Shown: piece by piece, positions 1,063-19,488 of the stretch
Numbering within the stretch: the first letter of the stretch is position 1
How the letters are laid out: every line of letters starts with the position of its first letter
Origin: a virus
Virus record (IMG/VR): IMGVR_UViG_3300032116_001312
Coordinates: 1-23,749 of that record
Reading direction: 5' to 3' (one strand)
DNA length: 23,749 bases
Made by a program: the position numbers and the translations under genes
Notes under the pieces: generated by a model
What the model was told of the DNA's origin: nothing
Databases searched by the model: none
The model's input: the letters and a program-made list of their open reading frames with translations, nothing else

Positions 1063-1100
1063 TTCGTTTGCTCCGGTGGGTTGTTTGCTGCGATGGGTTT

Positions 1101-1129
1101 AGTATCGTCTAGCGAAACAATGCAGTCAA
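1101..1129 (-). promoter_or_regulatory. Leftward early promoter (PL-like)
   Basis: On the minus strand a -35 box TTGACT (1129-1124) is separated by 17 bases from a -10 box GATACT (1106-1101), close to the sigma-70 consensus. The start point should fall near 1094, giving a leader of about 32 bases before the gene starting at 1062. Aligned by its -35 box, it shares 33 of 43 positions with the rightward promoter at 1609-1637, including operator half-sites. The two are probably controlled by the same repressor. Confidence 0.75.
1102..1118. promoter_or_regulatory. Operator overlapping PL -10 (OL1-like)
   Basis: This is a 17-bp inverted repeat, GTATCG-N5-CGAAAC, covering the -10 box of the leftward promoter. 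The same 6-5-6 design (GTTTCG-N5-CGATAC) covers the -10 box of the rightward promoter at 1620-1636. A repressor bound here would block polymerase. That CI or Cro is the ligand is inferred from position. Confidence 0.6.
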
Positions 1130-1133
1130 GCCA

Positions 1134-1150
1134 AACGATACAAAATCGTT
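1134..1150. promoter_or_regulatory. Second operator upstream of PL -35 (OL2-like)
   Basis: A perfect 6-5-6 inverted repeat, AACGAT-N5-ATCGTT, lies just upstream of the leftward promoter's -35 box. It contains CGATAC (1136-1141), which is the half-site GTATCG on the promoter strand. The same half-site lies at the same distance from the -35 box in the rightward promoter (1597-1602). It probably binds the same repressor. Confidence 0.5.
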
Positions 1151-1593: not shown

Positions 1594-1599
1594 ATTGTA
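1594..1599 (-). promoter_or_regulatory. Candidate repressor-maintenance promoter -10 (PRM-like)
   Basis: TACAAT on the minus strand (1599-1594) is five of six bases of a consensus -10 box and would place a start near 1587, about 32 bases before the repressor ATG. No acceptable -35 box lies 16-18 bases upstream, as expected for a weak promoter that needs activation. It overlaps the operator half-site at 1597-1602, which would allow autoregulation. This is an inference from one hexamer and its position. Confidence 0.35.
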
Positions 1600-1602
1600 T
1601 CG
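1597..1602. promoter_or_regulatory. Operator half-site upstream of PR -35 (OR2-like)
   Basis: GTATCG, within TTGTATCG at 1595-1602, lies five bases before CTTGAC of the rightward promoter. The leftward promoter has the identical TTGTATCG-N5-CTTGAC arrangement on its own strand. The second half of this site matches the inverted consensus only weakly, so it may be a low-affinity site. It overlaps the candidate -10 box of the repressor gene. Confidence 0.45.
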
Positions 1603-1608
1603 CCCTGC

Positions 1609-1637
1609 TTGACCACAGGGTTTCGGCAGACGATACT
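1609..1637 (+). promoter_or_regulatory. Rightward early promoter (PR-like)
   Basis: A -35 box TTGACC (1609-1614), a 17-base spacer and a -10 box GATACT (1632-1637) form a strong sigma-70 promoter. Only six bases separate the -10 box from the ATG at 1644, so transcription should begin at or next to the A of the start codon. It shares 33 of 43 aligned positions with the leftward promoter at 1101-1129, the same boxes and spacing included. It should drive the cro-like gene and the whole early operon to about 7400. Confidence 0.8.
1620..1636. promoter_or_regulatory. Operator overlapping PR -10 (OR1-like)
   Basis: A 17-bp inverted repeat, GTTTCG-GCAGA-CGATAC, spans the spacer and -10 box of the rightward promoter. 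Each arm is a variant of GTWTCG. The counterpart at 1102-1118 occupies the same place in the leftward promoter. Confidence 0.6.
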
Positions 1638-7147: not shown

Positions 7148-7401
7148 CCACACTTGCGCCAGACCAACGCTACGACTGGTCCCGCATCCTGCTCGACCTG
7201 AGCATGCACGGCATGACCCTGCAGGCCGTGTTCGAGGCGACCGGCATCCCGGTGTCCACGCTGCACGGGTTCAAGAACCTGGACGCCGAGCCAAAGCACG
7301 CGGACGGCGACCGGCTGTTGGCGCTGTGGCAGCGCAGGATGCATCCGCCTGTGCCGAGGATTACGGGGAGCATCAGGCAGGAGAGGGTGAGCAGGCGCTA
7401 A
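7144..7401 (+). CDS. Small HTH-like phage protein, last gene of the early operon
   Basis: An 85-residue basic protein. Residues about 14-45 (ILLDLSMHGMTLQAVFEATG, then IPVSTLHGFKNL) have the spacing of a helix-turn-helix. The tail is Arg/Pro-rich. Its place at the end of the early region, directly before the structural genes, is where late regulators or small terminase subunits often lie. It is too short and lacks other features to claim either. The stop codon TAA (7399-7401) touches the first copy of the 39-bp repeat. Confidence 0.6.
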   Translation: MTTLAPDQRYDWSRILLDLSMHGMTLQAVFEATGIPVSTLHGFKNLDAEPKHADGDRLLALWQRRMHPPVPRITGSIRQERVSRR

Positions 7402-7439
7402 TTTCCGGGAACCCGAACACCCGCCAGGCTGACACTGCG
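7401..7439 (+). repeat. 39-bp intergenic repeat, copy 1 (before head operon)
   Basis: The first 18 bases, ATTTCCGGGAACCCGAAC, and last nine, GACACTGCG, are identical to the copy at 12324-12362. The 12 bases between match at six positions. The left part holds inverted repeats (TTCC-G-GGAA and CGGG-AA-CCCG) that could bind a protein. It lies between the early operon's last stop and the first structural gene, 29 bases before the ATG at 7469. A regulatory role is inferred from position. Confidence 0.7.
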
Positions 7440-12292: not shown

Positions 12293-12323
12293 GGCCGGTG
12301 GCGTCACAACCACCGGCCCTTTT
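12293..12323 (+). terminator. Rho-independent terminator after the scaffold gene
   Basis: A perfect nine-base stem GGCCGGTGG/CCACCGGCC (12293-12301 and 12310-12318) with an eight-base loop is followed by CTTTTATTT. It lies 34 bases after the scaffold stop. Such a site before the capsid gene could reduce scaffold-to-capsid read-through, or end a processed transcript. Confidence 0.85.
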
Positions 12324-12362
12324 ATTTCCGGGAACCCGAACGCCACTCGGGCAGACACTGCG
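12324..12362 (+). repeat. 39-bp intergenic repeat, copy 2 (before capsid gene)
   Basis: Begins at the terminator's T-rich tail. It shares 18 identical bases at the left and nine at the right with the copy at 7401-7439. It lies 141 bases upstream of the capsid ATG. In the 12363-12503 stretch that follows I see no gene. There is one small hairpin (CAGCG-GCTG-CGCTG, about 12443-12456), and no convincing sigma-70 promoter. The repeat could be a late promoter, an operator or an RNA element. Confidence 0.7.
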
Positions 12363-16925: not shown

Positions 16926-17395
16926 TGATGGCACTATCGACCGGCGTGTCGGTGGTGGGCCAGTTGCAGCAGGGGCAGGCGGCGAAGGCTGCAGCCAACG
17001 CCGAAGCACGCAACGCCGAGAACCTAGCCGCGCAGACGCGTGACGCCGCCATGCAGGAAGCCAAGCGCATCCGGCTGGCGGGGGACCGCACGCGAGGCGC
17101 TGCACGGGCACAACTTGCGGCCAGCGGGATCGACGTGAACAGCGGAACGGCTGTGACCATCGAGGACGACATCGGCACGAGCTCGGAACTTGACGCCTAC
17201 AACACCCTTCTGACCGGCGACCGCAAGGCGACCAGCCTGCAGGACTCTGCCGCCATCTCCCGCGCCCGAGGCAAGAACGCCGTCACGTCGAGCATGCTGG
17301 GGAGCGTATCGACCGGGCTGCAAGGCTGGAAGGCGGTACGGGCTCCGCAGGTGAGTGCGCCGGGTTACGCTGAACCGTTTCGGGGGCCACGGTAA
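16904..17395 (+). CDS. Internal virion protein (small, T7 gp14-like position)
   Basis: A 163-residue protein. ATG 16904 is preferred because GGGGGG lies seven bases upstream and the resulting start, MCISASMMMALSTGVSVVGQ, is a hydrophobic segment seen in small ejection proteins. A long Ala-rich helix follows (QGQAAKAAANAEARNAENLA, then AQTRDAAMQEAKRIRLAG), then TRGAARAQLAASGIDVNSGT and a C-terminal GY-A-P tail. Proteins of this type are packed in the head and leave with the DNA to help form a channel across the envelope. The stop TAA overlaps the next ATG (TAATG). Confidence 0.75.
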   Translation: MCISASMMMALSTGVSVVGQLQQGQAAKAAANAEARNAENLAAQTRDAAMQEAKRIRLAGDRTRGAARAQLAASGIDVNSGTAVTIEDDIGTSSELDAYNTLLTGDRKATSLQDSAAISRARGKNAVTSSMLGSVSTGLQGWKAVRAPQVSAPGYAEPFRGPR

Positions 17396-19488
17396 TGGCG
17401 CGCATCCCCCTGGGCGACTTCGGTGGTGTGGTGGCTCGCCCGGTCGAGCGGCCGTCAGGCGGTCCGGATGCCTATGGCGCGGGTGTAGGACAAGCCCTAC
17501 AGAATGCAGGCTCCATCGGCATGCGCGCTGCTGGCCAGGAGATGGATCAGGCGGCAGCAGAGGCTGACCGCGCCAAGCGCCAGGACGAGGCAGACGCCAA
17601 GCAAGCGGCGCGAGAGGTGGCCGCAGAGATTAAGGCAGCGCAGCGCCAGGCCGAGGCAGAGGCCAAAGCAGCGGCGCGTGAAGCCGCACGGGTCAAGGCC
17701 CTGACGGCATCGGCCACGATCACCAACGGCCTGAACGACCTGCACGACGAGATCCAGAACGGGCTGGCCGACGGCACGGTGGACAAGGGCAAGGCGCTGG
17801 AGATTTTCCAGACCCGGGCGCAGAAGCTGCAGGCCGCAGGCATCGAGGGCGTGGACCCGGAGAATCGCCCGCTGGTGGAGGCGAGCCTTCTGGACAACGT
17901 GGGCCGCACGCGCCGGTCGGTCGCCGGTCTGGTGGCAGCACGCGAGAAAGCCGACATCATGTCGGGCGGCATGGCCTACTTCGAGGAGATGCAGCGGTTC
18001 GCGGTGCGCGGCCCGAAGGAGGCCGACCAGGCCATCGCCAACGTGCGTGCATTCTGGGCGGCCACCGGCCCGATGGCGGGCGACAAGGATGCGCAGGCCC
18101 GGGTGCAGCAGTTCGCCGAGCGCGTGCGGTTCACCCAGGCCACAGCACTGGTGAACGCCGACCCGGGCGCGGCACTCAAGGCCCTGAAAGACCCCAAGTA
18201 CCTGCCCGAACTGGACCCGGGCGCACGCACGAACCTGATCCAGACCGCCGACGTGCGGGTGACGCAGGCCGTAAACCGGGCCGAGGTCGCCAGCGCGGCG
18301 GCAGCGCGCAGGCTGGAAACCCAGTGGAATGCCCTGTCCACCGTGTTCGACGCCGGCAAGATGCTCGACCCGGCAGCGGCAGAGGCTGCGCGCCGGCAGT
18401 TCCGGGGCACGCCCTACGCTGCGGCACTCGACGCCATGATGACGCAAGCCCCTGCCACGTCGGCATTCGCATCGCAGCCGCTGGCCGCACAGTCGCAATC
18501 CCTGATGGCGTTTCAGGCCACCATGAACACCAAGGGCGCGACGCCCGAGATGATCGCCGAGTACAAGAAGCGCGAGACGGTCTACAAAGCGGCGGTGGCC
18601 GACTACGCGAAAGACCCCTATCAGGCAGCGGCAGAGCGCGGGGTAATCGTCGGCGTTTCCCCGCTATCGCTGGACATCCAAGCCCTGCCGGCTCAGCTTG
18701 CGGCCCGGGCCGAGGACGCGCGCAAGGTCAGCGTGGCGGCTGGCCGGGAGGTGTCGCTATTCCGTCCCGAGGAAGCCGAGAAGATCGGCGGGGTTCTGCT
18801 TGCCATGCCACCCAAAGACCGGGCCGGCGCACTGGTCGGGCTGTCCAAGGTCATGACCGTGGGCCAGCGCGCAGCCTTTGCCAAGCAGATCGAGCCAAAG
18901 GATCAGGCGCTTGCCCTGGCCTTGGCCTACACCGACCGGCAGACGACATCGGGCCGGTACACCTCGGAATTGATCCTGCGCGGGCAGCAGGCGCGGCTGG
19001 ACAAGACCAGCACCAAAGGACTGAAGCAGCCCGACGCAGCGGTGGGCCAGTGGTCTGCCGAGTTCGCCGACAGCCTGGCCGATGTGTACCCCAACCAGCA
19101 GACCGCCGACCAGGTGCGAGAGGCGGCGATGCTCATCAGCCACGGGATCGCGGCAGAGCAGGGCGGCGAACTGTCCACCAAGGATCGGCAGCGGGCTTTG
19201 CGTTTGGCGGTCGGCGGCGAGGTGGTCGAACACAACGGGCGCAAGATTCCCCTTCCTGCCGGCGTGGACGAGGACGGCCTGGCCAAGCGCCTGCGCACCG
19301 TGACCCCTGCCGACATCAAGACCGACACCGTGCGCGCGGGCGGCGTGCCGATGCCCGCTACCGAGTTTCTGAAAACCCTGCCCGGTCTGCCGCTGATGCC
19401 GTACCGCGCCGGCCAGTTCACGCCGCTGGTGGGTGGCCGTCCGGTGGTGGATGGTGCTGGCCGTCCGATCCTGATCGAGGTGCGGTAG
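17395..19488 (+). CDS. Large internal virion / DNA-ejection protein
   Basis: A 697-residue, mostly helical protein. Residues about 50-105 form a coiled coil rich in Ala, Glu, Lys and Arg that contains a 22-residue internal repeat (EADAKQAAREVA and EAEAKAAAREAA). After it come several alpha-helical repeats (NGLNDLHDEIQNGLADGTVD; YFEEMQRFAVRGPKEADQAI) and a C-terminal domain with QWSAEFADSLADVYPNQQTA. The size, position and lack of a catalytic motif fit the middle ejection protein of podoviruses. No transglycosylase or peptidase domain was seen. The coupled start (TAATG) and the TAGTG overlap at the end keep its stoichiometry tied to its neighbours. Confidence 0.75.
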   Translation: MARIPLGDFGGVVARPVERPSGGPDAYGAGVGQALQNAGSIGMRAAGQEMDQAAAEADRAKRQDEADAKQAAREVAAEIKAAQRQAEAEAKAAAREAARVKALTASATITNGLNDLHDEIQNGLADGTVDKGKALEIFQTRAQKLQAAGIEGVDPENRPLVEASLLDNVGRTRRSVAGLVAAREKADIMSGGMAYFEEMQRFAVRGPKEADQAIANVRAFWAATGPMAGDKDAQARVQQFAERVRFTQATALVNADPGAALKALKDPKYLPELDPGARTNLIQTADVRVTQAVNRAEVASAAAARRLETQWNALSTVFDAGKMLDPAAAEAARRQFRGTPYAAALDAMMTQAPATSAFASQPLAAQSQSLMAFQATMNTKGATPEMIAEYKKRETVYKAAVADYAKDPYQAAAERGVIVGVSPLSLDIQALPAQLAARAEDARKVSVAAGREVSLFRPEEAEKIGGVLLAMPPKDRAGALVGLSKVMTVGQRAAFAKQIEPKDQALALALAYTDRQTTSGRYTSELILRGQQARLDKTSTKGLKQPDAAVGQWSAEFADSLADVYPNQQTADQVREAAMLISHGIAAEQGGELSTKDRQRALRLAVGGEVVEHNGRKIPLPAGVDEDGLAKRLRTVTPADIKTDTVRAGGVPMPATEFLKTLPGLPLMPYRAGQFTPLVGGRPVVDGAGRPILIEVR
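17587..17678 (+). repeat. 66-bp-spaced internal repeat in the coiled coil
   Basis: The segments 17587-17612 and 17653-17678 are near-identical (about 22 of 26 bases, both beginning GAGGCAGA). They lie exactly 66 bases (22 codons) apart, which points to a partial duplication that lengthened the coiled coil by three heptads plus one residue. Confidence 0.6.

Follow-up and report, generated by a model that had tools for sequence, protein, structure and literature searches.

This study revealed that a 23,749-nucleotide stretch of viral DNA (positions 1 to 23,749 of IMG/VR record IMGVR_UViG_3300032116_001312; hereafter the window) carries a compact lambda-type (lambdoid) immunity region, in which a leftward and a rightward early promoter with shared operators flank a repressor gene. 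We consider it highly probable that these elements form the operator/promoter pair of that region, through which one repressor would control both arms. This interpretation, which the original prediction had put forward, draws on the match between the two promoters and their operators, the lambda-type layout, the covariation of the operator with the repressor and a counterpart in the prophage CP-933P; its description of a half-site beside each promoter had to be revised.

The PL and PR promoters and their operators

The leftward promoter PL (1101-1129, minus strand) consists of the hexamers TTGACT (1129-1124) and GATACT (1106-1101), and the rightward promoter PR (1609-1637, plus strand) of TTGACC (1609-1614) and GATACT (1632-1637), each pair separated by a spacer of 17 nt and located where the original prediction had placed it. 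Both promoters scored 9/12 in a sigma70 scan and were the only sigma70-like matches within 900-2000, where 0.5 were expected; the scoring used an E. coli sigma70 consensus. When 1101-1143 (minus) was aligned without gaps to 1595-1637 (plus), 33 of the 43 bases were identical, the very number that had been claimed. In 300 dinucleotide shuffles of the 801 bp between 900 and 1700, the best inverted 43-mer averaged 24.05 (sd 1.05) and never exceeded 27. Some likeness is to be expected of two sigma70-like promoters, but these shuffles and the recurrence of the pattern in relatives leave only a minute probability that a chance resemblance was combined with coincidental palindromes.

Two 43-mer pairs in the whole 23.7-kb window scored above PL and PR. 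One is a repetitive coding stretch (17572/17638). The other is a direct repeat (7396-7438 and 12319-12361) with the common core ATTTCCGGGAACCCGAAC, which is the second highest match in the window (34/43).

The 17-bp operator with 6-5-6 geometry that had been proposed for each -10 box, GTTTCG-N5-CGATAC, was found exactly twice in the window, both times overlying a -10 box: OL1 (GTTTCG-CTAGA-CGATAC, 1102-1118, minus) at PL and OR1 (GTTTCG-GCAGA-CGATAC, 1620-1636, plus) at PR. The pattern GTNTCG-N5-CGATAC retrieved the same two sites only. The GTATCG upstream of each -35 box, previously described as a lone half-site, pairs with CTTGAC at a 5-base gap, giving on both sides a 17-bp site, GTATCG-N5-CTTGAC, whose centre is 23 bp from that of the first operator. 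These putative second operators are OL2 (GTATCG-TTTGG-CTTGAC, 1125-1141, minus), which fits the pattern with two mismatches, and OR2 (GTATCG-CCCTG-CTTGAC, 1597-1613, plus), which is placed relative to PR as OL2 is to PL. One half of the site is good; the other overlaps the -35 box, and because it is constrained by that box it matches at only 3/6 positions, so that the dyad is weak when taken alone. As the same place is occupied by a complete palindrome in several relatives, for example AGGCATGCCT in locus L065 and ACATTAATGT at PL of locus L056, the upstream GTATCG is better read as half of a second operator.

Inspection of the sequence gave no convincing third operator beside either promoter. 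A scan of viral contigs for the operator recovered both copies in L011, an identical contig, and one match in each of eight others, which by our own estimate is about the number expected by chance. A genome search allowing two mismatches gave one match; it adjoins a porin-like gene, is accompanied by neither a repressor nor Cro, and was attributed to chance.

With regard to what keeps PL and PR alike, all 27 functional bases (-35, -10 and operator half-sites) are identical, as against 6 of the 16 remaining bases between them, and the 120-bp flanks match at chance level (32/120 and 36/120). As identity ends at the -10 box and above about -45, selection on the sites is favoured: selection would hold the -35 box, the -10 box and the operators while the bases between them drift, and the two promoters would be alike since both serve the same repressor and polymerase. 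Duplication and selection had been left side by side in the original prediction; the sharp edges, seen in the window and in the 19 pairs of relatives described below, point to the latter, and segmental duplication is disfavoured as the upkeep of the likeness. It is improbable that a fairly recent segmental duplication, or gene conversion, left these two sites behind and that their likeness is one of descent. Such an origin would fit the arrangement of the elements, all of which stand in one order and orientation in both copies, as well as the non-consensus T shared by the GTTTCG halves of OL1 and OR1, but not the chance-level flanks, the divergent non-functional core or edges that are equally sharp when averaged over those pairs. 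An ancient duplication behind PL and PR is possible.

Recurrence in related phages was assessed in a panel of 64 loci, comprising this phage and relatives of its Cro gathered from phage records, viral contigs and one bacterial-genome scan; judging by their record labels, these relatives come mostly from Burkholderiales. Each predicted PR was compared, ungapped, with the left arm of its own locus and with those of the other loci. The mean match was 24.7/45 for own arms versus 21.9/45 for foreign ones, and this own-arm mean was reached in none of 10,000 permutations (maximum 22.7). In 14 loci the own-arm match was above that of every foreign left arm, where about 1 was expected. The comparison across related phages that had been proposed as a check thus shows that matched PL/PR pairs recur. 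In the ungapped test, p<=0.05 was reached by only 19 of the 64 loci; in many of the others the copy may be gapped, more distant or absent. Averaged over these 19 pairs, identity between -45 and the last base of the -10 box is approximately 0.5-0.84, values that are inflated by the picking of best matches; outside it is approximately 0.25, and there is no such inflation there.

The immunity genes and the protein followed by the operator

The repressor gene (1214-1555, minus) encodes a CI-like protein of 113 aa with an HTH_31 domain (Pfam, PHROGs) and is divergent from cro, with promoters between the two genes. The HTH was the only domain detected by Pfam and PHROGs; no S24/peptidase domain was found, whereas lambda CI has an autocleavage domain, an SOS-cleavable S24 repressor being a feature of lambda that not all lambda-like switches share. 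The 77-aa Cro (1644-1877, plus) belongs to the YdaS/P22 Cro family, with 59.4 bits against PF15943 (cut-off 30), 36 bits against PF14549 (cut-off 30.2) and matches to solved Cro proteins (PDB 3bd1, 8co2, 8c7k and 1rzs). The cII/ydaT position is occupied by a gene for a 93-aa protein (1878-2159, plus); a CII-type identity was considered for it, and the search gave a LexA-like DNA-binding domain only (Pfam PF01726; PDB LexA).

On the left arm, the first open reading frame (48 aa, 916-1062, minus) has GGAG upstream and lies approximately 32 nt past the predicted PL start. The contig IMGVR_UViG_3300042691_013017 (29176 bp) is identical to the window over the 2129 bases compared (1-2129) and reaches 1357 bp further left; given this identity, the window probably forms a section of a longer record from this same phage. 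In L004, an identical-sequence contig that reaches further left, the left arm encodes an exonuclease VIII homologue (2.2e-84) followed by a RecT homologue (1.9e-71), so that the leftward early operon contains recombination genes. Genes for a head-tail connector, a major head protein and tail proteins are also present in the window. ARAGORN called a tRNA-Trp of 96 bases at 18155-18250 (minus); the call lies within a long plus-strand open reading frame (17395-19488) and is possibly a false positive.

The question of which protein the operator follows was addressed in the 52 loci whose repressor call was usable, the repressor and cro starts of relatives being our own calls. Similarity of the PR region, compared without its -35 and -10 boxes, correlated with repressor similarity (Mantel r 0.55); the partial correlation was 0.45 for the repressor given Cro and 0.08 for Cro given the repressor. 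This supports the view that the spacer/operator sequence tracks the repressor, not Cro. These correlations argue against a scenario in which the operator sequence is dictated by Cro and the repressor recognises different sites. In its favour, Cro is the more conserved of the two proteins, and CP-933P has a YdaS-type Cro that binds the PR/PRM region (PMC8630535); the scenario is nevertheless improbable.

In the panel, no repressor is closely related to that of the window (normalised similarity <=0.16), so that the assignment of its operator rests on its own two copies and on locus L082, which was reached by repressor similarity alone, without use of promoter sequence. In a set of 401 genomes from one family, the nearest relative of the repressor lies in L080/L082, with 43% over residues 6-82. 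The PL/PR match of L082 is 31/45; the next best left-arm match was 22, and a right-side control gave 23.

As near-identical control sequence lies at both early promoters, one repressor could shut both off. Transcription from PL is expected to start near 1094 (minus) and that from PR at about 1644 (plus). In the lysogen, repressor dimers would bind OL1 and OL2 as well as OR1 and OR2, perhaps with cooperation between the two sites of each promoter, and would sterically block RNA polymerase at both promoters. This would silence the left arm, with its small genes, exonuclease VIII-like nuclease and RecT, and simultaneously the right arm, with cro, the gene of the LexA-like DNA-binding protein and the replication genes. 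During lytic growth, Cro would occupy the same sites.

Comparison with known switches

In lambda, 17-bp operators 23-24 bp apart overlie the -10 and -35 boxes of near-identical promoters that flank cI. The window resembles lambda in its 17-bp operators 23 bp apart, their overlap with the -10 and -35 boxes, the near-identical promoters flanking the repressor gene and the recombination genes on the leftward arm. In contrast, lambda has three operators on each side, a trait of lambda itself that other lambda-like switches need not share, whereas two are visible per promoter region here, the operator sequences are unrelated, and lambda cro has a leader.

A further counterpart is CP-933P of E. coli O157:H7, whose PaaR2/YdaS/YdaT switch was described by Jurenas 2021 (PMC8630535). 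Its PL has -35 and -10 boxes identical to those of PR, with similar operators, and PaaR2 and YdaS each repress both promoters in reporter assays. Both systems combine a short repressor (PaaR2-His is 15 kDa) with a divergent YdaS-type Cro, and both include operator sites with one poorly conserved half. The CP-933P operators differ in being 18-bp repeats with a sequence of their own, of which each region has three to four, as opposed to two of 17 bp here; toxin-antitoxin genes sit with the repressor, unlike in the window; and YdaT is a POU-type protein, where the window has the LexA-like DNA-binding protein. Judged by its sequence, the locus is a CP-933P-like and lambda-like switch with an unrelated operator sequence, a kind already known.

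Predicted leaderless translation of cro

The ATG of cro lies 6 nt past the end of the PR -10 box (1632-1646) without a Shine-Dalgarno motif, and cro is therefore predicted to be leaderless. A spacing of 5-9 between the -10 box and the cro ATG was found in 34 of 55 non-redundant loci (window included), compared with 2.5 expected (200 shuffles gave at most 8) and with 12/242 control ORFs. None of these 34 cro genes, as opposed to 87/242 control ORFs, had a Shine-Dalgarno motif; the relatives with predicted leaderless cro were drawn from L005-L077. On the other strand, a candidate PRM -10 box (TATGCT, 1562-1567, minus) with a weak -35 box lies 6 nt before the repressor ATG and would perhaps yield a leaderless repressor mRNA. 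Across the panel, the spacing seen for cro also peaks at the start codons of repressor genes, but less strongly.

In the immB region of PY54, cI and cro are both leaderless by RACE (PMC4488713), a likeness to what is predicted here for cro and perhaps for the repressor; PY54 Cro binds a single site, OR3, and the repressor and operator of PY54 differ from those of the window (PMC4488713). In CP-933P, the PaaR2 mRNA is leaderless, and ydaS is not reported as leaderless in the portion of the paper at hand (PMC8630535), in contrast to the prediction for cro. Our search of the open-access literature found no report of leaderless cro as a general pattern, which is no proof of novelty.

We lean towards the view that in YdaS-type switches, mainly of Burkholderiales phages, PR gives a leaderless cro, the repressor often being leaderless too, whereas the left operon has an ordinary leader. 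With similarly modest confidence, near-copies PL and PR would differ systematically right after the -10 box, and both sides of the switch would need leaderless translation. The PL leader of this window has no 5'-terminal hairpin. The PL transcripts of L065 (PL near 2356), L064 (near 2977), L036 and others would open with a short stem-loop, but the z-scores are mostly weak, and a hairpin is therefore not claimed as a feature of PL leaders.

These results define a putative new immunity specificity, GTWTCG-N5-CGATAC, with direct targets for binding studies. The recurrence of matched PL/PR pairs in relatives, together with an operator that tracks the repressor, can help to predict which prophages share immunity. 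Finally, the pattern of leaderless cro would open to testing a link between leaderless translation and the choice between lysis and lysogeny in this large group.
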